Origin: Calditrichaceae bacterium
GTDB lineage: Bacteria; Calditrichota; Calditrichia; Calditrichales; Calditrichaceae
Direction of reading: 5' to 3'
Assembly (NCBI GenBank): GCA_016928315.1
Contig: JAFGKZ010000017.1
Coordinates: 1-52,002, forward strand
Length of the DNA stretch: 52,002 bases
The position numbers and the translations under genes are program-made. Shown one piece after another: positions 849-42,993 of this stretch. Positions within the stretch are counted from its first letter, which is position 1; each line of letters opens with the position of its first letter. Below the pieces are notes generated by a model, which saw nothing but the letters and a program-made list of their open reading frames with translations, made no database searches and was not told the DNA's origin.

Positions 849-3800
849 ATGACTGATAAAGAAAATAAATTACTCATAAATATTTATCGTTTCGGACGGA
901 AACAGCGGTTATTTGAATTTGTAAAAGGATTCATTTTATTTGGTTGTATAGCCCTTATACTCTGGTTGAGCGTTTGTCTTGCAGATATATTCTTTTATTT
1001 TTCTACAATAACCCGCTGGGGATTGTGGTTTATTCATATTTTTATAATTAGTTTTCTGTTTATTACACTTATACTAAAACCGTTATTGAATATATCATCA
1101 CTTAAATTGCATTCTGATCTTACTGATATTTGTTCCATCATTAAAATCTACTTTCCGGAAACAAAAAACTCCCTTTTAAACGCTTATCATCTGATCATAA
1201 AAAAACAGAACAGTCAAATATCAGAGGGCTTGCGATCAGCGGCTGTAAAAAAATATCTTGACCAATTTGAAACGTATAATTTTTCCCAACGGCTTAAATT
1301 ATCAGAATATATCCCACCTTTAAGTTTTGTAATACCAATTATTATCAGCGCAATCATTTTATTGTCCTTTAAAGCGGACCGAATTATTCATTCATCATTA
1401 CGGTTATTAAATCCAACCAACGAATATATCCTAATTCCTGATTTTTCATTTAATATAATTCCGGGTGATGTAAAAGTTATTAAAGGAGAATCAATTGATT
1501 TTAAGGTAGGATACAGCGGACCTGCGATAAATAGTTGTGATTTGATCATTCTTCCGGAAGGCAATCAAGAATACCAACAGATTGATTTAAAAAAGACGGA
1601 TGGCTATTATAATGCTTCAATGACAAATCTCCAGAAACCATTCAAATATCAAATTCGGGCTCAATCGCCGGAAAATAAATCGCTTAAAAACAAGCTCGTC
1701 TCAAAATTTTATTATGTTGATATCATTACCCCGCCTATAACCAATAATATTGATATATCTATAACGCCGCCTATCTATGCCGGGCAGGATATACAATATC
1801 TTGCAAGAAATATTGGTGACATTACCGGATTAGCCGGCTCAAAAATCAGTTTTAAAGCCATCGTTAATAATGTTTTAGAATCTGCTAACTTAATATTTGC
1901 AGAGGGTAATGCGATAAATTGTCAAATTCAGGGGAAGCGAATTTCTACTGAATTTTATATTACAGAAAATTCGAATTATATAGTAGTATTGAAGGATACG
2001 GCCGGATATACAAATCAGAACCCTATTGAATACACCATTTCCATTCAACCTGATAATCCACCATTTGTGGAAATCATTGAACCCGGTGAAGATATTGAAA
2101 TACAACTTGACGCCACCCTGGCGATTCAGGCCGAAGTAATTGATGATTATGGCATAAATAAAACCTCTCTTCATTATAAATATATACGTAAATCGGAAAC
2201 TTTATCTGACAGTGGCTGGCATGTTATTGATCTCGCTCATCCATCAAATCTAAAACGGCTGATAATAAGTCACTTCTGGGATTTTAATAAACTACCTGTT
2301 GCCTTTGAAGATAGAATTGCCTACTTCATACAGGCTAAAGATAACAATAACATATCAGGACCCGGTATTGGTAAAAGTAAAACTTTCTATATTCGTTTCC
2401 CCTCTCTGGAAGAGATCTTTGATACCTTCGCAGAAAAGGAAAGTGAACAGATAGATAAAATGGATGAGGCCGCTAAACAATCTGAAGAATTAAAAAAAGA
2501 ACTGGAAAAGATAAATCGTGAGCTTAAAAGGGCCGAAGAGCTGGAATGGGAGCAAAAACAGCAAATTGAAAACGCATTGAATAAGCAGGAACAACTTCAG
2601 GAAAAAATTAAAGAAATTCAAAAGGACTTGGAAGATTTAATTAATAAAATGGCAAATAATGAATTAATCAGTCCGGAGTTATTAGAAAAGTACTCACAGC
2701 TGCAGGAACTCTTTCAAGAAATTGCCACACCGGAATTGTTGGATGCAATAAATAATTTGCAGCAATCTTTAGATAAGGCTGATCCTAAACAGGTTCAACA
2801 AGCCTTTGAAAATTTCAAATTGAATCAGGAAGAATTTCAGCAGAAAATTGAACGCACAATGGAATTACTAAAACAAGTTCAGTTAGAACAAAAAATGGAT
2901 CAGCTTGTACAGGAAGTTATCCGCCTGATGGAACAGCAGGAAAAAATTAGCAGCCGACTTCAGGATAAACAATCATTAAACAAAGAAGAAACAAATCAGC
3001 TGATTAATCAGCAAAAACAGCAGGAAAAATTATTAGAGAATTTGAAACAGAATTTAAACCATGTTTTAAATGAGCCTCGTTTATCCAATTTTAAGGAAAC
3101 ACACCAATTACTAAAATCTGTACAGCAAATGGCTGAATCAATGCAGAAACAAAATCAGATGCAGATGCTGCAACAAAATCTGGAGCAGGACAATCAGCAA
3201 ATGGCCGCAAATTTATCACAAAATCTGCAAAAACAGATAAGCCAAATGCAGGCATCTATATTAAAGGCGCAATCCAAAATGCTCAATCAAAATAAGGATG
3301 AGATAATGGAACAGATGTTAAGCGCTACGCAGAAATTGTTACAATTATCGTTTAATCAGGAACAAATTTTAAATGATACGCAAACAACCTCAGCGTTAAA
3401 TGAAGATTTTGCGGATATATCTGTAAAACAGGGACGTGAACAACAAAATTTTCAAAAATTGATTTCAGCATTAGTTGAACTTTCAAAGAAGACATTTTTC
3501 ATACAACCCGGAATGAGTAAATTGCTCGGAAAAAGCCAGATGAGTATGGCCAAAAGTATAGAGGAATTATCCGAGAGAAATAAAACGCAGGCCATGCAGC
3601 AGCAGGCACAGGCTTTGGAGGGACTTAACGAGAGCGTTATGCAGATGCAGCAATCCATGTCGCAGATGGCTCAGTCGCAATCAGCAACCGGATTTGAACA
3701 ATTTTTAGAACAACTTCAGCAAATGGCCGGCAGCCAGGGACAGCTTAATGAGCAAACATTAAATCTGTTTCAAACCCAGGGTAATCAAGGTTCTATGACT

Positions 3801-4253
3801 TTGCAGCAACAAGGTGAAATGCGGCGTATTGCCGGTGAACAGGCGGCTATCCAGGAAGCCCTTGAGAAAATGTCAAGTAAGATGGGATCCAGACAGGATA
3901 TTATGGGCCGCCTTGGTGAACTTGGCAGTAAAATGGATGAAGTAGTTCAGGATTTGTTAACGCAGAATGTCGACAGAAAAACTATTGAACGGCAAAGAGA
4001 AATACTTTCCCGAATGCTGGATGCGCAAAAATCTGTCCGGGAACGCGAATATTCAAAAAAACGTAAAGCGGAAACTGCAAAAAAATATATGGTTATTGAT
4101 CCGGGCTCCTTAAAACATTTATCGGACTTGGAAAAAAAGAAACTGCAGGATGCTTTAAAGAAATCATTAAACGAAGGATACCAATCGGATTATCAGAATT
4201 TGATTGAATTGTATTTTAAACAACTTATACAGCAGCAAAACGAAAAGAACTAA
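849..4253 (+). CDS. DUF4175-like membrane protein with long Gln-rich coiled coil
   Basis: An 1134-residue protein. Two membrane segments lie near residues 23-50 and 58-80, a third near 150-172. A large beta-rich extracytoplasmic region follows, with P-G-D-V-K-V-I-K-G-type strands, to about residue 520. From about 523 to the end the protein is almost entirely coiled coil, extremely rich in Gln, Glu, Met and Lys, including repeated QMQQSMSQMAQSQ-like stretches. This layout is that of the DUF4175 proteins found next to DUF4159 genes. It begins 3 bases after the preceding stop, so translational coupling is likely. Membrane anchoring plus a long coiled coil suggests a structural or scaffolding role in the envelope, but that is inference. 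No enzymatic motif is visible. Confidence 0.7.
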   Translation: MTDKENKLLINIYRFGRKQRLFEFVKGFILFGCIALILWLSVCLADIFFYFSTITRWGLWFIHIFIISFLFITLILKPLLNISSLKLHSDLTDICSIIKIYFPETKNSLLNAYHLIIKKQNSQISEGLRSAAVKKYLDQFETYNFSQRLKLSEYIPPLSFVIPIIISAIILLSFKADRIIHSSLRLLNPTNEYILIPDFSFNIIPGDVKVIKGESIDFKVGYSGPAINSCDLIILPEGNQEYQQIDLKKTDGYYNASMTNLQKPFKYQIRAQSPENKSLKNKLVSKFYYVDIITPPITNNIDISITPPIYAGQDIQYLARNIGDITGLAGSKISFKAIVNNVLESANLIFAEGNAINCQIQGKRISTEFYITENSNYIVVLKDTAGYTNQNPIEYTISIQPDNPPFVEIIEPGEDIEIQLDATLAIQAEVIDDYGINKTSLHYKYIRKSETLSDSGWHVIDLAHPSNLKRLIISHFWDFNKLPVAFEDRIAYFIQAKDNNNISGPGIGKSKTFYIRFPSLEEIFDTFAEKESEQIDKMDEAAKQSEELKKELEKINRELKRAEELEWEQKQQIENALNKQEQLQEKIKEIQKDLEDLINKMANNELISPELLEKYSQLQELFQEIATPELLDAINNLQQSLDKADPKQVQQAFENFKLNQEEFQQKIERTMELLKQVQLEQKMDQLVQEVIRLMEQQEKISSRLQDKQSLNKEETNQLINQQKQQEKLLENLKQNLNHVLNEPRLSNFKETHQLLKSVQQMAESMQKQNQMQMLQQNLEQDNQQMAANLSQNLQKQISQMQASILKAQSKMLNQNKDEIMEQMLSATQKLLQLSFNQEQILNDTQTTSALNEDFADISVKQGREQQNFQKLISALVELSKKTFFIQPGMSKLLGKSQMSMAKSIEELSERNKTQAMQQQAQALEGLNESVMQMQQSMSQMAQSQSATGFEQFLEQLQQMAGSQGQLNEQTLNLFQTQGNQGSMTLQQQGEMRRIAGEQAAIQEALEKMSSKMGSRQDIMGRLGELGSKMDEVVQDLLTQNVDRKTIERQREILSRMLDAQKSVREREYSKKRKAETAKKYMVIDPGSLKHLSDLEKKKLQDALKKSLNEGYQSDYQNLIELYFKQLIQQQNEKN

Positions 4254-4340
4254 AATAACTTTTCTAATATCTGCTATTTATTTAACTTAACGCACATCAG
4301 GGATTCGTTTCGCCGGTTAAAAAAAATTAATTACCAATAT

Positions 4341-7010
4341 ATGAATTATTTCTTAAAACCGATTACCGCCATAGTTTTTATTGTGTTTATTATCACTTCG
4401 TTTCCATTATATGGGGATGAGGTATATACAAAAGAGATCCTTATTGAGGGGGCTGAGGTCTTTGTAAAAAATAATCAGGATATTTCAGATCAACCAAAAA
4501 TCGCCTTAGTATTGAGCGGCGGCGGCGCCCGGGGTCTGGTTCACCTGGGTGCGATTGAAGTCCTCGAAAAAAATAACATCCGGATTGATTTGATTGTCGG
4601 AACCAGCATTGGCAGTGTAATTGGCGGCTTATATGCATCAGGTTATACTTGCAATGAAATTACGCAAATATTGAAATCTGTAAATTGGGACGATATATAC
4701 AGAGACAGCGCCCAGCGGACAACGCTGTTTCCCAGTCAGATCGATAAGCGGGACCGATATTTAATTTCCGTACGATTTAATGGTTTAAGTCCATATATCC
4801 CCTCATCTTTTACGCCGGGGCAAAAAATTCTTACTTTTTTATCCGAACAGCTATTAAAAGCACGGTACCAGGTCTATAACGATTTTGATGATCTTAAAAT
4901 ATCATTCCGCGCTGTTGCCACTGATCTCGTTTCCGGTAAACAGATCATCATGAAAAATGGTAATCTTGCCGAGGCAATCAATGCTTCGTTAGCCGTTCCT
5001 CTTCTCTTCTCCGCCATTGAAAAAGACAGTATGCTTTTAGTAGATGGAGGCTTATTATCAAATTTACCCGTGCAGGCCGCGCTGGATGAAGGCGCTCAGA
5101 AAACAATCGCTGTGGATGCCACTTCGCGATTGCGTGAAAAGGATGATGTACTGGTTCCATGGAAATTGGTTGATCAGGCCACAACAATTATGTCGGCAAA
5201 TTCTACAACTATAGACAAACAAAAAGCGGATGTGGTAATACAACCGGTTTTGGAAAAATTCCCCAGCGATCAGTTTGATGACATTGATCAGTTAATTGAA
5301 ATTGGCAAACAAGCTGCAGAAAAAGAGATAGAAAGAATTAAACAGGTTACGGGTAAAACGGTTAGTTTATCCGATTCTCTGTTCTATGTTGACAGCATAT
5401 CCATCAAAGTAAACAATCAACCAGTCCCGATTAATGATTTTCCTATTTGTGCAGAAATTGTAAATACTTATACAAATAGAAATTTTATCATTAATGCTAT
5501 GGATTCTATTTTGCAGGATGGTTATTATCAATCAATTTATACAAATATTAATCCCCGTGATACCGTCGTATCCATATCCTGTGATTTAACAGAATTTGCA
5601 TCGATTAATAATATCTTTATCATTGGTAATAATGTCATATCCGGCGAGCAGATTCGGGATAATTTATCAATTAAGCTGGATGATAAATTGAATTATATTA
5701 GACTACAGAACGATATTAAAAATATCATCACTTTGTACCGTCAAAATGGTTATTCTTTAGCTTCAATTAAGAATATTGAATGGAATGATCAGACAGGTAC
5801 ACTTTCCATCTATATTGATGAAGGCATTATCAATGAAATTGAAGTTGAGGGAAATGAAACTACAAAAAGATATGTGATCGACCGCGAATTTAAATACCAA
5901 TACAATAATGTGTTTAACTGGAAACCTATTCAGCAGTCGATACAAAATGTTTATGCTACAAATCTCTTCGAACGCGTGAATGTAGATGTGGTTAAAACCG
6001 ATTCATCCACTAATTTAGTGGTAAAAGTTCATGAAAAATCACCCATTGTGGCACGTCTTGGCGGTAAGTATGACAATGAGCGGCGGATGCAGGCTTATAT
6101 TGAGTTAAGTCACGAAAATATCTGGGGTACCAGTATGCAGGCTGACTTTTTAGCACGACTGGGTATGCGCGATGGTTATGTCGGATTAGGTATTATTGAG
6201 GATCGCATTTTTTTGAGTAATTATAATTTCGGCTTCAAAGTATATCATAACTGGCAAATTAATCCGGCTGGCAATCCTGCAGATCCTGTAGGGCATTATC
6301 GCGAAGAACGTACCGGTTTTCGGATACAGTTAGGCAGACAGCTTCGCAGACTCGGTCAATTGATTGCAGAATTCAGACAGGAAAATATTGAAGATGAAAC
6401 CTATGACGGGGATTTTGATATCAACCAGACAAATGAGATTCGTACGATACGGTTACAGGCATCTTCCGATAAACGTGATCGTCGTGATTTTCCCACCACT
6501 GGTATATACAATTACTGGGCATGGGAATCCGGCAATCGTTTGGTGCTGGAAACAGGTGAAACATATACAAAAGCGCTTATCAATCTCGAAGGGTATTATA
6601 CATTCAGATCATATCATACCTGGCATTTAAAACTATTCGTAGGTATTGGTGATCTCACCCTGCCCTTTTCCGAAAACTTTAGGTTGGGGGGGCTGCATAG
6701 CTTTTTCGGACTTATGGAAAATGAATACTACGGCCGGCAATTATTTTCTGCAAACGCTGAGTATCGTTATCGTCTGCCTTTTAAAATGGGAAATAATAAC
6801 CTATTGATAAATGACGCCTATCTTTTAATTCGCTATGATTTTGCAGGTATCTGGAATGAACCGGAATATTTATTTACTTCCGATGATTTCTTTTCTGCAT
6901 TAGGAGGCGCAATTGCATTTGATACCTTTTTAGGTCCGCTTTATCTTGGTTATGGCCGAACTACCCGGGGCACAGACGCCGCTTATATATCTATTGGCTT
7001 AGATTTTTAA
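4341..7010 (+). CDS. Patatin-like phospholipase fused to POTRA/Omp85 barrel
   Basis: An 889-residue protein with a signal peptide (about 1-25). The patatin domain has the oxyanion loop GGGARG (60-65), the nucleophile motif G-T-S-I-G with Ser89, and the D-G-G motif with catalytic Asp235. After about residue 345 come POTRA-like segments (for example EIEVEGNETTKRYVIDREF), then from about 570 a C-terminal beta barrel of the Omp85/BamA type ending in a terminal aromatic residue (GLDF). This is the architecture of type Vd autotransporters (PlpD, FplA): the lipase is carried to or through the outer membrane by its own barrel. A paralogue lies at 40804-42993. The 3' end overlaps the convergent mutY gene by 20 bases. 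Enzyme class is well supported; substrate is unknown. Confidence 0.85.
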   Translation: MNYFLKPITAIVFIVFIITSFPLYGDEVYTKEILIEGAEVFVKNNQDISDQPKIALVLSGGGARGLVHLGAIEVLEKNNIRIDLIVGTSIGSVIGGLYASGYTCNEITQILKSVNWDDIYRDSAQRTTLFPSQIDKRDRYLISVRFNGLSPYIPSSFTPGQKILTFLSEQLLKARYQVYNDFDDLKISFRAVATDLVSGKQIIMKNGNLAEAINASLAVPLLFSAIEKDSMLLVDGGLLSNLPVQAALDEGAQKTIAVDATSRLREKDDVLVPWKLVDQATTIMSANSTTIDKQKADVVIQPVLEKFPSDQFDDIDQLIEIGKQAAEKEIERIKQVTGKTVSLSDSLFYVDSISIKVNNQPVPINDFPICAEIVNTYTNRNFIINAMDSILQDGYYQSIYTNINPRDTVVSISCDLTEFASINNIFIIGNNVISGEQIRDNLSIKLDDKLNYIRLQNDIKNIITLYRQNGYSLASIKNIEWNDQTGTLSIYIDEGIINEIEVEGNETTKRYVIDREFKYQYNNVFNWKPIQQSIQNVYATNLFERVNVDVVKTDSSTNLVVKVHEKSPIVARLGGKYDNERRMQAYIELSHENIWGTSMQADFLARLGMRDGYVGLGIIEDRIFLSNYNFGFKVYHNWQINPAGNPADPVGHYREERTGFRIQLGRQLRRLGQLIAEFRQENIEDETYDGDFDINQTNEIRTIRLQASSDKRDRRDFPTTGIYNYWAWESGNRLVLETGETYTKALINLEGYYTFRSYHTWHLKLFVGIGDLTLPFSENFRLGGLHSFFGLMENEYYGRQLFSANAEYRYRLPFKMGNNNLLINDAYLLIRYDFAGIWNEPEYLFTSDDFFSALGGAIAFDTFLGPLYLGYGRTTRGTDAAYISIGLDF

Positions 7011-28018: not shown

Positions 28019-29227
28019 ATGAAAAAATGCATTTCATTTTATCCATTACTTACGTTTTTTATTTCCGCATTAATAATAGCATCCGGTTATGCTCAGGGTT
28101 TAATTATTGATCACAATTGTGTGGCTATAACAAAAATTCCACAAACCTGGATTGAAACAGCAAAATCTTCTCTGCACATCGCCTATGGTCATACATCCCA
28201 CGGCAGTCAGATAACTGATGGCATGTCCGGATTAGTTGCCTTTGCCAATGGCGGGGGAAAAAGTTTAGCCTTACCAGAAGATATTTTTGCATGGAATAAT
28301 GGCGGCACAGACGGCGCTTTGGATTTGCACGACTATGCTATGGGCGGCGATGTGGGGTATTATCCGGATTGGATCAACAATACGAGGTCTTATTTGGGTG
28401 ATCCGGATTCAACAACAGGCCGGGGCGCTAATAATCCTGATGTGAATGTGATCATGTGGTCCTGGTGCGGTCAGGTAGGTGACAAATATTTCTACGGCAC
28501 GTTAAATTCCGAATACATTGAACCCATGACACAATTAGAATTAGATTATCCCGGTATAACATTTATCTACATGACCGGTCATGCGGATATTAATGATGAT
28601 GAAGATAATAAAGCAGCTAACCAAATTATTCGTGACTATTGCATAAATAATGATAAGGTTTTGTATGATTTTAACGACATCGAATGTTATGACCCTGATG
28701 GAACCTATTATGAATTTGTTCATGATAATTGCAATTACTATGCTTCCGATGGAACTTTACTTGGCAATTGGGCAACAGAATGGCAAGCCGCTCATACAGA
28801 GAATGTCGACTGGTATACTTGCGGCGCCCAGCATAGCCAGCCTTTAAACGCCAATCAAAAAGCCTATGCCGCATGGTGGATGTGGGCCTGCCTGGCCGGC
28901 TGGGAACCGGTTACATCAGGGAATATGACCAATGTGTCAGTCCAACCAAGCAAATTTAGATTAGAACAAAATTATCCCAATCCTTTTAACCCAAACACAA
29001 TTATTACATATACCGTAGGGGCACATAGCGATGTGCCCTTACAATATATAGATTTATCCATTTACAACATTCTTGGGCAAAAGGTTGCTGCGTTAGTTTC
29101 AGAAAAACAACCGCATGGAACCTATTCAGTTAATTTCAATGCGGATGGATTAAATGCTGGTATATATTTCTATAAGCTTACTGTTGGGGATTTTGAGCAG
29201 ATTCGTAGGATGGTATTGGTAAAATAA
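28019..29227 (+). CDS. Exported protein of unknown function with T9SS type A sorting domain
   Basis: A 402-residue protein with a signal peptide (about 1-25). I do not recognise a named family for residues 30-300. Its notable sequences are GHTSHGSQ (58-64 for H-T-S-H-G-S-Q), IMWSWCGQVGD, YMTGHADIND (H188, D190) and CGAQHSQPLNANQKAY (H272). These could be blocks of an SGNH/GDSL-like hydrolase, which is inference. Residues about 312-402 are a T9SS type A C-terminal sorting domain: FRLEQNYPNPFNPNTII, LSIYNILGQKVAALV, GIYFYKL and a final MVLVK. The sorting domain is interrupted by an in-frame palindromic repeat (29015-29042). It is expected to cross the outer membrane through the T9SS and be cleaved and anchored or released. 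Confidence 0.8.
   Translation: MKKCISFYPLLTFFISALIIASGYAQGLIIDHNCVAITKIPQTWIETAKSSLHIAYGHTSHGSQITDGMSGLVAFANGGGKSLALPEDIFAWNNGGTDGALDLHDYAMGGDVGYYPDWINNTRSYLGDPDSTTGRGANNPDVNVIMWSWCGQVGDKYFYGTLNSEYIEPMTQLELDYPGITFIYMTGHADINDDEDNKAANQIIRDYCINNDKVLYDFNDIECYDPDGTYYEFVHDNCNYYASDGTLLGNWATEWQAAHTENVDWYTCGAQHSQPLNANQKAYAAWWMWACLAGWEPVTSGNMTNVSVQPSKFRLEQNYPNPFNPNTIITYTVGAHSDVPLQYIDLSIYNILGQKVAALVSEKQPHGTYSVNFNADGLNAGIYFYKLTVGDFEQIRRMVLVK
29015..29042. repeat. Palindromic REP-like repeat inside the sorting-domain coding sequence
   Basis: Arms GTAGGGGCACAT (29015-29026) and ATGTGCCCTTAC (29031-29042) are inverted copies with one mismatch around AGCG. The form resembles dispersed GTAGGGGC...GCCCCTAC palindromes seen in many bacterial genomes. 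In this frame it encodes about nine residues (from V333), in a loop between two strands of the sorting domain. Confidence 0.65.
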
Positions 29228-37484: not shown

Positions 37485-37790
37485 TTATTGTGCATTCCAG
37501 CGATATTTGTTCAAATTAACTCTGCCCGAATTATCAAAAATTATACCCTCGGACTCCAATAGTTTGCGCTGCAGATCCTCAAGCGCCACTAAGCTGATTT
37601 TCCCCTGGCTGTTTATTACCCGATGCCAGGGGATTTTGATATCTTCCGGTGTAGCAGCTAAAGCATATCCAACCATACGGGCTGTACAATTGCCTACTAT
37701 TTTAGCGATCTGGCCATAAGTGGCCACCCGGCCAAATGGAATTAGTTGAACAATTTTATAGATATTTTGATAAATTGAGTTTGTTTCCAA
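37485..37790 (-). CDS. Alkyltransferase-like protein (ATL, MGMT family without the acceptor Cys)
   Basis: A 101-residue protein with the O6-alkylguanine-DNA alkyltransferase DNA-binding domain: PFGRVATYGQIAKIVG, the arginine-finger segment CTARMVGYALAATP (R38) and IPWHRVINSQGKIS. The active-site PCHR of MGMT reads PWHR here, with Trp55 replacing the methyl-accepting Cys. This defines ATL proteins such as E. coli YbaZ (eATL), which flip and bind alkylguanine and hand it to nucleotide-excision repair but cannot dealkylate. Length and domain fit ATL exactly. Confidence 0.9.
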   Translation of the reverse strand: METNSIYQNIYKIVQLIPFGRVATYGQIAKIVGNCTARMVGYALAATPEDIKIPWHRVINSQGKISLVALEDLQRKLLESEGIIFDNSGRVNLNKYRWNAQ

Positions 37791-37832: not shown

Positions 37833-39470
37833 TTACTCTTCGAGTAAATAAATACTCTGGCTGGTTTCAATTTCTACCAGAATACCTTCTTTAGCATTTA
37901 GTTTTTCATCATCTGCATTCAAATACACTGGAAAATCCGATTTTATTTTTCCGTATTCCGATCGTAGTTTGGCTTTAACTTCAGTGTCTTTTGGCAGGGA
38001 AATTTTTACCGGTTTGTAGGAAGTTATTAATCGGATACTTGCATCTTTAGGTAAATCTATAATATCACTGATTTCTATCGGGCTGCTGGATCCTTGCACA
38101 TCAATTGATCCGCCGGATCGTTTGATAATTACATATTTATATGAATTCTCAATTTTAATATCTCCGCCGATGCTATCGACCAGAACCGGACAGGAACCAC
38201 CGTGTATATCCAGATTTCCATCGATATAACTAACATTAATTGGTTTATAGGTTGAACGAATTTTAACATCCCCCCCAACATGACCAAGCGTAACCGGTGC
38301 CGAACCGCTGTTAATATCCACTTTACCTCCTACATTAAATACCCGTACATCTTTATACGAGGAATGAATAGTCACATCATTTTTAACGCCGTCGATATCA
38401 ATCGGACAGGAACCGCCATCTACAACAACGCCGCCGCCAATCTTCTCTAAACGAATTGTTTTATAAGAAGTACGAATTGAAGCATCCTTGCCAATGTTGA
38501 TTGCAGAAACCGGGCAGGAGTTGGCATTCACCTCAAGCGCACCTTTAATATTGTTCAAAATAACATCTTTATAACTTGTTTCAATAAGTGCATCCTTGCC
38601 GACGCCATAAACATTAACCGGAGCGCTTTCACTGTTGACAGTTAATCGGCCCTCTATATTTTCAATGCGCACCGGCTTATAGGACGATCGAATTTCGCAA
38701 TCACCTCCAATATCGGTTACATTTACATCCGAACTGGTTCCTTTTAATATCAGATCACCTGTAACCTGCGAAACGCTAGCCATTTTATAACTGTTATAGC
38801 AGTCCACATTGCCATCCACATTTCGAATATCAACCGGACAACTGCCGCCTTTTACCCATACATTACCTTTAAAATTATTTACTTTGATTGTTGAATAATT
38901 ATTATGAACAATTAGATTCCCACCGCAATTATTAAGTGTTACTTCACCGGAAGAATTTTTGATTTCAATTTCACCATTAATATCAAAAGTTTCGATGTCG
39001 CCATATTTATTTTCAATAATCAAAGAATAATTATTGGGCATCTCTATTTTCATTTCAGTGGATGTGGATACTGAGCGATTGATGATAAATAATCGGCTTA
39101 ATAATCCAAGAATACCTTTATTCCGGCTGAATTTTGGATCATCTTTTGGAGTCTTCATTTCCAGGCGATACCCATCTTTATAGGGTTCAAGTATCAGCTC
39201 CGATTGTGAGAAAAATTCCTTCTCCAAATCCTCATCGAGACCACCCGTCTCCAGGGCAGCCTCAACAGATATTTTATTCGTATCAGAGCCTTTAATCGAC
39301 ATATCATACCTGCCATCCTTGATGTATAGGATACCAGCGGATTTTACATCGGCTAGTGCATTATATAAAGAAGCATTTTGGATGGGCGGTGTTTTATCTT
39401 CCGCAGAATAGCATAATGCTGCAATTGAAAATGATATGGAGAATAGCATGTATATTTTAAAGCTTTTCAT
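37833..39470 (-). CDS. Secreted DUF4097-like solenoid protein with 36-residue repeats
   Basis: 545 residues from this start, preceded by AAAGGAG; a longer frame to 39512 lacks a signal sequence at its start. A signal peptide covers about 1-22. Residues about 173-490 form a regular solenoid. Tyr of an (S/T)-S-Y-K-like motif recurs at 192, 228, 264, 300, 336, 372, 408 and 444, exactly 36 apart, and again at 485. Between them a G-(G/S)-S-(C/A)-P-V motif recurs at 211, 247, 283, 319, 355, 391, 427 and 463, also 36 apart. Each period is two coils of about 18 residues, as in a beta helix. The family resembles the DUF4097 putative adhesins. It sits 69 bases after an anti-sigma factor gene, so it is probably a product or partner of that regulon. 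Confidence 0.85.
   Translation of the reverse strand: MKSFKIYMLFSISFSIAALCYSAEDKTPPIQNASLYNALADVKSAGILYIKDGRYDMSIKGSDTNKISVEAALETGGLDEDLEKEFFSQSELILEPYKDGYRLEMKTPKDDPKFSRNKGILGLLSRLFIINRSVSTSTEMKIEMPNNYSLIIENKYGDIETFDINGEIEIKNSSGEVTLNNCGGNLIVHNNYSTIKVNNFKGNVWVKGGSCPVDIRNVDGNVDCYNSYKMASVSQVTGDLILKGTSSDVNVTDIGGDCEIRSSYKPVRIENIEGRLTVNSESAPVNVYGVGKDALIETSYKDVILNNIKGALEVNANSCPVSAINIGKDASIRTSYKTIRLEKIGGGVVVDGGSCPIDIDGVKNDVTIHSSYKDVRVFNVGGKVDINSGSAPVTLGHVGGDVKIRSTYKPINVSYIDGNLDIHGGSCPVLVDSIGGDIKIENSYKYVIIKRSGGSIDVQGSSSPIEISDIIDLPKDASIRLITSYKPVKISLPKDTEVKAKLRSEYGKIKSDFPVYLNADDEKLNAKEGILVEIETSQSIYLLEE
38001..38954 (-). repeat. 108-base coding repeat of the solenoid gene
   Basis: The stretch encodes eight uninterrupted 36-residue periods plus one end unit with a 5-residue insertion (residues about 173-490). 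The repeat is clear in protein sequence but strongly diverged in DNA, which points to an old expansion kept under structural constraint. Confidence 0.75.
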
Positions 39471-39539
39471 TTTATTACTCCTTTTAAATATAAATATCCC
39501 CTTACTCTGCAACCATCGAAGGGTCTAGGGGCGGGGTTA

Positions 39540-40175
39540 TTAACTCTCCTCTTTCAAATTTTCAGGTTTTATTTTATATATTTCTTGAAGTGTTTCCTTT
39601 TTTTCTTTTAGAGCGGCGAACAGATATTTATGGATATGCGCATTGGCTGGATTATCTGATAAAGCTTCTTTGCATTCAGCAATTTGCTCATCAATCATTT
39701 CCAACTTATCACGATAGAGAAGCATCAATCCGATATCCATCTGTGCCATTTTTTCCTTGGTAGCTGCTTCCAGTTCTTCAATTGATTTCAGATAATCTTG
39801 CTCCTTTTCATCCAGTTTTTCCAGCATGCTAAAAGTAACGATACCCTTATCCGGGATTTGATTGCGCTGGATAAAATAAAAACTAATGGCAACTCCAACA
39901 ATCAAAACTGCTGCGATGCGAAATAGCATTTTGTTGCTCTTTAGCATAAGATGAATAATATTTTTAGATTTTTGCTTACTCAGATCAGTTTCAATCTTTA
40001 CCCAGACATTATCTGAATCAACCGGTCGCTTTAAACTGTTAACCAGCTCAATCAATCTTGCATCCTCGGCCAACATGGCCTTGCAAAATTCACATGATTG
40101 AACATGTTGATCGAATTCCATATCATCAATCTGACCCAATTCATGTTTTTTATAAAAATCGCATTGCTTACTCAT
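39540..40175 (-). CDS. Anti-sigma factor with zinc-finger ASD motif
   Basis: A 211-residue single-pass membrane protein. The N-terminal H-x3-C-x2-C motif (H24, C28, C31; HVQSCEFC) is the zinc-binding anti-sigma motif. A membrane segment covers about 84-102. The C-terminal part (about 110-205) is helical and charged and would be periplasmic. Overlapping the ECF sigma gene by 4 bases, it is its likely partner: it would hold the sigma factor at the membrane until an envelope signal triggers release. No protease site is recognisable by eye. Confidence 0.85.
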   Translation of the reverse strand: MSKQCDFYKKHELGQIDDMEFDQHVQSCEFCKAMLAEDARLIELVNSLKRPVDSDNVWVKIETDLSKQKSKNIIHLMLKSNKMLFRIAAVLIVGVAISFYFIQRNQIPDKGIVTFSMLEKLDEKEQDYLKSIEELEAATKEKMAQMDIGLMLLYRDKLEMIDEQIAECKEALSDNPANAHIHKYLFAALKEKKETLQEIYKIKPENLKEES

Positions 40176-40699
40176 ATAGCTGCCAACTCTCCTTTCAGAG
40201 CCTGTTTTAGTTTATTTTTTGCCTGAAAAATGTGTGCCTTAACCGTTCCAATACTTATATCCAGCATCTCAGCAATTTCATCTTGTTTAAATCCTTCAAT
40301 AGCAAATAACACAAAACAAGCGCGCATTTTATCGGGTAAGGCACAAATAGCTTCATCCAAATGAATTTGCAACTCGTTCTGTGGATTAAAAATAGGTTCT
40401 CTGTCTCCAATTCTCTCATTAACTGTTTTTTTCCGATGTAAATCATAGCAAACATTAAAAAGTATGCGATAAATATAAGTACTCAGTTTTGCCTCGCTTC
40501 TAAAGTTAGAAATTGCCTTATTTAGCTTTATAAAAGCAATTTGTATGGCATCATCCGCATCTTCCCGGTTTCCAAGCATACGATATGCTGTTCGGTATAA
40601 CCCATCAAAATATTGCTGATAAATCTTGTTAAAAGCATGCAAATCACCTGATCGACATTGTTTGATAATTGTCTGTTCATTTTCCAGTTGTGGTTCCAA
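40172..40699 (-). CDS. ECF (RpoE-type) RNA polymerase sigma factor
   Basis: A 175-residue group IV sigma factor. Region 2 spans about 20-90 (YFDGLYRTAYRMLGNREDADDAIQ), and region 4 about 115-170 with the helix-turn-helix FKQDEIAEMLDISIGTVKAH. There is no region 1 or 3. The start is TTG, with GGAG six bases upstream, a sign of modest translation. The 4-base overlap with the anti-sigma gene couples their synthesis. An imperfect palindrome (40721-40740) upstream may be part of an autoregulated promoter. Confidence 0.92.
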   Translation of the reverse strand: MEPQLENEQTIIKQCRSGDLHAFNKIYQQYFDGLYRTAYRMLGNREDADDAIQIAFIKLNKAISNFRSEAKLSTYIYRILFNVCYDLHRKKTVNERIGDREPIFNPQNELQIHLDEAICALPDKMRACFVLFAIEGFKQDEIAEMLDISIGTVKAHIFQAKNKLKQALKGELAAI

Positions 40700-40720
40700 A
40701 AAATTCTCCGGAATTGTATT

Positions 40721-40740
40721 TAACGATGGTTACACCGTTA
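40721..40740. promoter_or_regulatory. Imperfect palindrome upstream of the sigma factor gene
   Basis: TAACG (40721-40725) and CGTTA (40736-40740) flank a partly symmetric centre, 22 to 41 bases before the TTG start. Its position suits a promoter or operator, but the match is only partial. Confidence 0.25.
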
Positions 40741-40803
40741 ACACATACTTTTATTATATTAGACCGTTCATTATTTAAAAAGGTTTAGCAGAAGTGAAAC
40801 TTT

Positions 40804-42993
40804 TTAAAGCGAATAACCAGCACAAAAATAAAAACGGGTTTGAAACTGATCAGATCGATTTAAACTTTTTGATCCCTGGCTGACAATAAATTCAATTGTT
40901 CCAAGGATAGAAAGGAACTTAACGCCTAGACCATAACCATAAAGATTACTTGTTTCTTGGATTCCGGCCATATCAAAAAGATCATAGGCAGCGCTATTTA
41001 AGATGAGTTTTAGAAAAATATCTTTCTTATATTGATATCGGTAATCCAATCGCACGTAACCAAATTTATCACCAATAAGCTGATCATTGGACATACCAAC
41101 AAATGATTTAGCGCCTCCTTTAAAGACATATTTATATATAGGTATACCACCATCAAAATTAGTATAAAATGTGTGCAACGAAATGGTATGATTTTTAAAT
41201 AAAGTATTATACATATCAAAAGAAATTTTGTACTGTTGATATTCAACATCTGATTTGAGATCTTTATAAGAAGCATCAATATTAGCATCTAAATAAATGC
41301 CGTTTCGGGGAAGTATTGAATTATCAAGCATATCAATTTTAATATTCATCCGCACTTTCCTTAACCGATCATTGAACGATTGATGATAAAGAGTATCCAG
41401 ACTGCTAACTCCTGGCTTGGTATCCATTTGCTCCTGGTTATACTCCAAAAGAATATTTCCGCTTCTACCCATTAATATTCCGATGCCTCCGGCTATGGTA
41501 TGTGATTTATCACTATATTCAGCCGACTTATTTCCTAAAAAAGGATTGTAAATATTTACCGGTATGTCTTTGTAATTAACTCGGATATAGGGATAAATCG
41601 GTAAATTTAAATTACGTGACGGATATGAAACATTCAGGTTATAGTTGACCAATCCCGCAAATTCCAACGAAGTTTCAAGCCGGGCGCCCGTAATAAAAGT
41701 ACTTGATAATTGAACTCCCAGGTGCGCTACCAATTCATAGTAATTATCATAATGGATTCCTATGCGCAATTTTCGGAATGGTTTTTCTTTAACTTTAATA
41801 TTAATACGAATACCTGTATCCGTAATTTTTTCTATTGTATAAGTAATTCGATCAAAGTATCCCAGCCCATATAGCTGCTCAATACGTTGATTCAATACTT
41901 GTTTATTAAATTCATCTTTTGGTTTGATACCGAGCAAACGGTAGATGAAATTAAAGTTTAGTTTTTTATTGCCTGTAATAGTAATACCGTACACGGTCAA
42001 ACTTTTATTAATTGTATTATTTTGAACAAATACAGGTTTTGATTTTTTATAAAGATTGTTATCAGCTTGAAGCCGTCGTAGATCAGAAATATAACTAAGC
42101 GCTGTTTGTTCTCCCTTTTTTAAAATATGCTGTACTTTATCGTTGTCAAAATCAGAAGAGGATAGGTTTTCAAGATCAGGGGTTATAACCATATCACAAA
42201 GCGTACGATTTTTAACCTGCCGATCATAATCTGTTAATACAAAAGTCTGATTAAGTATGTTTATTAATGAATTTAGTTCATCCTTCCCGGCAAGGCGGCT
42301 GCCAATATCAACGCCGATAATAATATCAGCGCCCATATCTTTTACAACATCGGCAGGAAAATTATTAACAAGACCGCCGTCAACCAGCAGGGAATCGCCC
42401 CATTCCACAGGACTAAAAATGGTGGGAATAGACATGGTCGCATGCATAGCCCGGGCAAGAGATCCCGATTGTAAAATCACCTCATCACCCGTAATAAGAT
42501 CAACAGTAACACATCGCAGTTTTATATTCAGATTATCAAAGTTATAAATCTGGTTATCTTTTATTAATAACTCCGAGATAAAGGACGACACGTTCTGTCC
42601 CTGAATAAGTCCGCTGGGCACTACAGGCGTAATGCCTTTTAGACTAAGCTGTATCTGATATTTGTCATCATCATATTTTAACAGATATGGAATGGATTTT
42701 CGTTCGGGAGTATCGGATAATAATGCATCCCAGTTTGCCTTATTGACGATACCTTCAATTTCTGCACCTGAATAGCCGCAAGCATATAACGCGCCAAGCA
42801 ATCCGCCTATACTTGTCCCCGCAATATAATCAACAGGAAAATTAAGAGAATCCAGCATCTTCAAAATACCAACATGGGCAAATCCCCGGGCGCCGCCCCC
42901 TGACAAAACCAAGCCTACTTTTGGATGATCTTCCTGGGCAAAAACATGACAACAAAACATCAATATAGTAAGGATTAAACTAAATATTCGCAT
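40804..42993 (-). CDS. Patatin-like phospholipase with POTRA/Omp85 barrel, second copy
   Basis: A 729-residue paralogue of the protein at 4341-7010. A signal peptide ends near residue 19 (HVFAQ). The patatin domain has GGGARG (32-37), G-T-S-I-G with Ser61, and D-G-G with Asp205. A POTRA-like segment lies around 330-400 (LTVYGITITGNKKLNFNFIYRLLG), then a predicted barrel from about 405 to the terminal AGYSL. It is shorter than the first copy, with fewer POTRA-like residues. Strand and place beside the sigma unit suggest an envelope regulon, without proof. No strong SD is visible. Confidence 0.85.
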   Translation of the reverse strand: MRIFSLILTILMFCCHVFAQEDHPKVGLVLSGGGARGFAHVGILKMLDSLNFPVDYIAGTSIGGLLGALYACGYSGAEIEGIVNKANWDALLSDTPERKSIPYLLKYDDDKYQIQLSLKGITPVVPSGLIQGQNVSSFISELLIKDNQIYNFDNLNIKLRCVTVDLITGDEVILQSGSLARAMHATMSIPTIFSPVEWGDSLLVDGGLVNNFPADVVKDMGADIIIGVDIGSRLAGKDELNSLINILNQTFVLTDYDRQVKNRTLCDMVITPDLENLSSSDFDNDKVQHILKKGEQTALSYISDLRRLQADNNLYKKSKPVFVQNNTINKSLTVYGITITGNKKLNFNFIYRLLGIKPKDEFNKQVLNQRIEQLYGLGYFDRITYTIEKITDTGIRINIKVKEKPFRKLRIGIHYDNYYELVAHLGVQLSSTFITGARLETSLEFAGLVNYNLNVSYPSRNLNLPIYPYIRVNYKDIPVNIYNPFLGNKSAEYSDKSHTIAGGIGILMGRSGNILLEYNQEQMDTKPGVSSLDTLYHQSFNDRLRKVRMNIKIDMLDNSILPRNGIYLDANIDASYKDLKSDVEYQQYKISFDMYNTLFKNHTISLHTFYTNFDGGIPIYKYVFKGGAKSFVGMSNDQLIGDKFGYVRLDYRYQYKKDIFLKLILNSAAYDLFDMAGIQETSNLYGYGLGVKFLSILGTIEFIVSQGSKSLNRSDQFQTRFYFCAGYSL

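Follow-up and report, generated by a model that had tools for sequence, protein, structure and literature searches.

The locus lies in a window of 52,002 nucleotides, the whole stretch of DNA that was analysed, which is part of a 3.7-Mb draft genome (G000) of a little-studied Calditrichaceae bacterium; Calditrichota is placed directly under Pseudomonadati in the NCBI taxonomy, without an FCB node. Three genes stand in a row on the minus strand, to which all features of the locus given below belong, just as a sequence-only reading of this DNA had described them: an ECF sigma factor, an anti-sigma factor overlapping it by 4 bases (ATGA) and, after a gap of 69 nt, an exported repeat protein. The sigma factor (40172..40699, 175 aa, TTG start) matches Pfam Sigma70_r2 (1.2e-17) and r4_2 (1e-15) as well as TIGR02937 (8e-31) and, in keeping with ECF membership, has sigma regions 2 and 4 only; its orthologues are about 48-49% identical to it. 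Directly downstream of the repeat protein is a gene (37485-37790, minus strand) for an alkyltransferase-like protein in which PWHR replaces the PCHR active site. On the other side, a gene for a patatin protein (40804-42993, minus strand), which scores for Patatin, POTRA and Omp85 like PlpD-type secretion proteins, terminates about 20 bases ahead of the sigma promoter; a second, similar-looking patatin protein by sequence is encoded elsewhere in the window (4341-7010, plus strand).

The anti-sigma factor (39540..40175, 211 aa) has a single transmembrane helix, and the ATGA overlap together with the conserved operon order suggests that it binds and inhibits the cognate sigma factor. Its N-terminal domain (40032..40175; helices at residues 7-48 in the structural model) carries a ZAS-like motif read in the sequence, C5 and H24-x3-C28-x2-C31, and gave no match to Pfam zf-HC2. 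The Hx3Cx2C motif is found in G000 and G009, and the proteins of G019 and G020 lack the N-terminal ZAS-like domain; orthologues that consist of the transmembrane helix and the extracytoplasmic domain, without this N-terminal domain, are encoded at L024:4384-4908 and L012:869-1393. The transmembrane segment (residues 82-105, 39861..39932) is a hydrophobic helix in the model and is followed by the extracytoplasmic domain (residues 115-200, 39576..39833), the best conserved part of the protein, with a motif, LYR.KL..QI..C..A...NP.N.HI..Y...AL, that is invariant in five orthologues. This domain is modelled as three helices with moderate confidence (local pLDDT about 80-90), and a search of PDB folds with that moderate-confidence model as query returned no match.

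The repeat protein (37833..39470, 545 aa, with its ATG after an AGGAG site) is a long, divergent Toastrack (DUF4097/LiaG-like). Inspection reveals a signal peptide at about residues 1-22 (39405..39470), with a charged n-region, a hydrophobic core and a CYSA site, and its equivalents in all the solenoid orthologues. There follow an N-terminal Toastrack entry domain (residues 33-110, 39141..39374), which shows the corresponding strand pattern in the model and aligns to the Toastrack profile, 17 coils of 18 residues with alternating aromatic (Y/F) and Ser arcs (38094..39011), delineated by the repeat and charge analyses given below, and a C-terminal cap (residues 460-545, 37836..38093) with a YGKIKSDFPVY motif common to Toastracks of other phyla. 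Neither the window protein nor three of its orthologues reach the gathering cut-off of PF13349, and other Pfam and PHROG matches are at chance level; Toastrack membership therefore rests on profile and fold evidence. NCBIfam LiaG matches the window protein at 4e-6, more distant relatives clearly pass Pfam DUF4097, and BLASTP reaches at 5e-17 a Chloroflexota protein that itself passes DUF4097 at 1e-34. An hhalign comparison of two profiles, one built from the window protein with three orthologues and the other from eight DUF4097-passing relatives, aligned residues 1-542 to 1-411 of 413, entry region and cap included (probability 99.9, E 1.1e-34).

The AlphaFold model, made from an alignment of four sequences, bears out the predicted solenoid fold (mean pLDDT 87.6, solenoid mostly >90), with strands of five to six residues and three-residue turns between them. 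Its top Foldseek matches in the PDB are 3jx8, 4qrk (probability 1.00, TM by target 0.53), 3ljy, 4opw and 3lyc, the best of which are putative-adhesin/Toastrack structures, at modest E-values (2e-3). 4QRK and 4OPW are type examples of the Toastrack (Ravi et al., PMC11237479), and the model shows the same kind of single-stranded beta-helix. A likeness to knotted solenoids was discarded, the paper concerned (PMC13123833) describing a different fold. Toastracks were predicted to be mainly intracellular (Ravi et al., PMC11237479), a proposed rather than a defining property that the window protein, having a signal peptide, does not share. A sorting tail of the YPNPFNP type, as on the product of 28019-29227, is absent from the solenoid; the signal peptide and the lack of such a tail together point to the periplasm as its most likely location.

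The three-gene order recurs in relatives, being complete in G000, G009 (locus L023), G019 and G020 (L024). The arrangement in G022 (L022) is consistent with it to the contig end: the contig starts inside the anti-sigma gene and the solenoid gene lies downstream, after about 380 nt. Among 40 genomes of the phylum, a profile of the anti-sigma factor detected this type in five, exactly those that carry the solenoid; such co-occurrence of neighbouring genes can also be produced by inheritance as a single block. The operon is real, conserved and of a known kind.

The expectation of a sigma-type promoter ahead of position 40699 also held: a sigma-E-like element, AACCTTTT-N13-GTCTAA, is predicted 59 nt ahead of the sigma start codon (40759..40785) and is conserved upstream of the sigma gene in all four genomes. 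It was discovered as a bipartite word shared, at identical spacing, by three upstream regions; the fourth copy, in G009, came from a later genome search and precedes the annotated sigma start by 233 nt, outside the discovery sequence. Element and spacing are the same in G009, G019 and G020 as in the window, and the bipartite form with an AAC -35 core is that of a promoter of an autoregulated ECF sigma factor, as far as a predicted site, matched by sequence, can indicate. The sole exact copy in each of the four genomes is the operon's own; therefore, the visible regulon is the operon itself. A search for a wider regulon with one mismatch gave matches that do not exceed the reversed-pattern control (8 vs 12 in G000, where long ORFs contain five of the seven extra sites); the scan covered one motif at no more than one mismatch, and weaker targets may escape it. 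Its own operon thus seems to be the main thing that the switch controls, and a sigma factor with no other visible target points to the third gene, the Toastrack, as the output. An imperfect palindrome, TTAACG-N10-CGTTAA (40720-40741), which was not seen in the other upstream regions, lies in the leader that separates the promoter from the sigma start.

Numbered from the ATG at 39470, correctly so in the sequence-only reading, the Tyr ladder of the solenoid runs without an indel through residues 156, 192, 228, 264, 300, 336, 372, 408 and 444, one coil beyond the earlier claim, and the residues C, S, A, C, C, A, C and S do follow one another in the second column reported, every 36 residues from 211 to 463. 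At lag 36 the protein matches itself with an identity of 0.34 and at lag 18 with 0.18; over all lags, 1000 shuffles gave at most 0.167. At the DNA level the 108-bp repeat units share about 48% identity, which indicates that selection maintains the ladder; a recent repeat expansion was rejected on this ground. Charge pairs at lag 18 are strongly skewed: 23 are of like charge (47.5 +/- 5.0 expected) and 78 of opposite charge (58 +/- 5.1 expected), none of 1000 shuffles within columns and within coil type being as extreme in either respect, and lags 36 and 54 show nothing comparable. This complementarity at lag 18 only argues that residue i stacks on i+18 and that one coil has 18 residues; the repeat is accordingly best read from such patterns as 18 residues in two alternating versions rather than as a 36-residue coil. 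A 36-residue coil with opposite Tyr and Cys faces was rejected for the same reason, and the faces earlier placed on opposite coils were probably misplaced: the i/i+18 charge pairing would put the Tyr and Cys columns on one edge, in alternate coils. The solenoid of G009 (L003/L023) lacks exactly 36 residues, that is, one aromatic/Ser coil pair, relative to window residues about 364-399, and changes in solenoid length may go by coil pairs.

Across the five orthologues, coil position 3 is Tyr in 35 and Phe in 9 of 44 odd coils and Ser in all 39 even ones. The position after this invariant Ser, the Cys/Ala-Pro column which had been put forward as a conserved site, varies (C13, S13, G6, A5, N2), so that the conserved partner of the Tyr is Ser, not Cys. 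A redox role for the Cys ladder was dismissed given this variation and orthologues with 2 to 6 Cys in total. Hydrophobic residues fill 85-100% of cells at positions 6, 8, 11, 15 and 17, position 1 holds a small residue, and position 3, being Tyr/Phe or Ser, is never charged. By parity the Tyr at position 3 would face inward, and the pattern would be explained most simply if a large side chain there had to be matched by a small one in the coil that follows.

We consider it fairly probable that the locus is an autoregulated envelope-stress module, in which an ECF sigma/membrane anti-sigma operon has as its output an exported, elongated Toastrack that serves as a periplasmic effector. Homology, operon conservation, co-occurrence, promoter conservation and i/i+18 stacking were computed for this proposal; the signal and step of release, the location, the effector role and the inward Tyr are inferred. 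The anti-sigma factor would keep the sigma factor tethered to the inner membrane until an envelope disturbance, sensed by the extracytoplasmic three-helix domain, frees it. The freed sigma factor would then transcribe from the AACCTTTT-N13-GTCTAA element ahead of its own gene, yielding more sigma, more anti-sigma as a brake and more Toastrack. The latter would be exported to the periplasm, where a rod of roughly 17 coils could act as envelope effector or scaffold, its edge alternating between Tyr/Phe and Ser because an inward aromatic would require a small neighbour one coil on.

The main rival, which we regard as rather unlikely, casts the solenoid as an RseB-like co-regulator that controls how stable the anti-sigma factor is by attaching to its extracytoplasmic domain; the third gene would then belong to the sensor rather than be the output. 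The order of sigma, anti-sigma and periplasmic partner as in rpoE-rseA-rseB speaks for it, as do the strict co-occurrence of anti-sigma and solenoid and the fact that the extracytoplasmic domain is best conserved and is retained even without the N-terminal ZAS-like domain. However, a sensor-only role leaves no output if the sigma factor targets only its own operon, and the fold is unlike that of RseB: neither Pfam nor Foldseek matched the solenoid to the MucB/RseB family, and the model is a beta-solenoid. Moreover, anti-sigma factors of another type, zf-HC2 plus HEAT, also adjoin Toastracks, so the partner surfaces are not fixed.

The sequence-only reading had offered two roles for the solenoid, the binding of a repetitive ligand by a Tyr-Lys surface or that of a sensed or displayed product of the sigma regulon; with the own operon as the only visible target, the regulon product is the better half. 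The former, in which the stacked Tyr-Lys edge of a surface-displayed solenoid binds a repetitive polymer (glycan, peptidoglycan or ice), strikes us as improbable. Solenoid edges can serve as binding sites, and about half of the aromatic coils have a Lys directly after the Tyr; but in G022 the Tyr is replaced by Phe in all arcs and the Lys by N/E, successive Tyr residues are two coils apart, and the solenoid carries no sorting tail or anchor. The Phe throughout G022, the inward parity and the outward positions such as 7, 9 and 18, which are the least conserved (0.36-0.59), therefore make a ligand surface unlikely, and core packing fits the Tyr ladder better. As for the notion that an unrelated solenoid gene merely lies downstream of the sigma/anti-sigma pair, the gaps of 69 nt in the window and about 380 nt in G022 lend it something, but it is scarcely credible with the order maintained in four to five genomes of three families at 32-38% identity to the window solenoid amid otherwise differing flanks, and with solenoid and anti-sigma co-occurring in five of five.

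Returning to the module with the Toastrack as its output, we asked how far its alternating arcs extend. In most of the Toastracks found, all coils have the same arc letter (S in GSG, G, D, N or T). Seven alternate between aromatic and small residues: the five orthologues (YS or FS), one from Chloroflexota (YS) and one from Verrucomicrobia (FN), a count that gives no class frequency, since the latter two came from searches that started from the window family. These two (L025:4560-5870 and L026:4551-5726, respectively) have strictly alternating YG/SG and F/NG arcs, and in L025 an ECF sigma gene divergently adjoins the Toastrack gene. A search beyond the phylum in two sampled classes (150 and 141 genomes) gave one distant match in each, in already known genomes. 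We tentatively suggest, as a possibility only, that Toastracks include a 'binary' coil class, with strict alternation of aromatic and small (Ser/Asn) arcs from one 18-residue coil to the next (YS, FS, FN; Calditrichota, Chloroflexota, Verrucomicrobia), and that the Calditrichota member is the one product of a dedicated sigma factor regulating only its own operon. If true, this would be a closed sense-and-respond loop around one periplasmic rod. The alternation of aromatic and small arcs offers a simple rule by which to design beta-solenoids with 18-residue coils. Toastracks recur in the envelope-stress systems of many bacteria, and a sigma factor with a Toastrack operon as its single visible target narrows the question of what the domain does to one gene.

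Among known systems, the rpoE-rseA-rseB operon of Gammaproteobacteria shares with the locus the order of sigma, membrane anti-sigma and periplasmic protein, and a promoter of the same general type (AAC...GTCTAA), whereas the fold of RseB differs from the window solenoid. RseB governs the stability of RseA, and sigma-E has a broad regulon. In Bacillus subtilis, too, an ECF sigma factor controls a Toastrack gene with a link to envelope stress, YvlB being encoded in the sigma-W-regulated operon yvlABCD (PMC12791056), and an operon-linked sigma factor is mentioned for Toastrack contexts by Ravi et al. (PMC11237479). However, the sigma-W regulon is broad and YvlB has PspC/holin-like partners, whereas at the present locus a sigma/anti-sigma pair is dedicated to a single visible target, and no PspC lies close by.

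Compared with the Toastracks themselves (PF13349 DUF4097, DUF2807/DUF2154; LiaG, YvlB, Lmo2486/2487), the window protein has the same entry region, 18-residue beta-helical repeats and C-terminal cap, but is longer (17 coils), exported and below Pfam detection; unlike most Toastracks of the phylum, with one arc letter per coil (GSG, GG, DG, NG), its arcs alternate between aromatic residues and Ser. Closest in logic are the loci of the phylum in which an ECF sigma factor and a zf-HC2-HEAT anti-sigma factor accompany a DUF4097 gene (G000:C169, G029, G030, G034): they have the same three parts with a Toastrack as output gene, but the extracytoplasmic part of the anti-sigma factor consists of HEAT repeats, and the Toastracks have uniform TMGG/SGGD arcs, unlike the window protein. 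One of them, L095 (G000:C169:2400-11100, about 1968-4600), is a second ECF sigma/HEAT-type anti-sigma/Toastrack locus of the window genome, with uniform TMGG arcs, and those of G029 and G030 have AACTTTTT...GTCAAA-like elements upstream. Thus, the type of system is already known, and what is new is the strict alternation of coils and the dedicated one-target switch.
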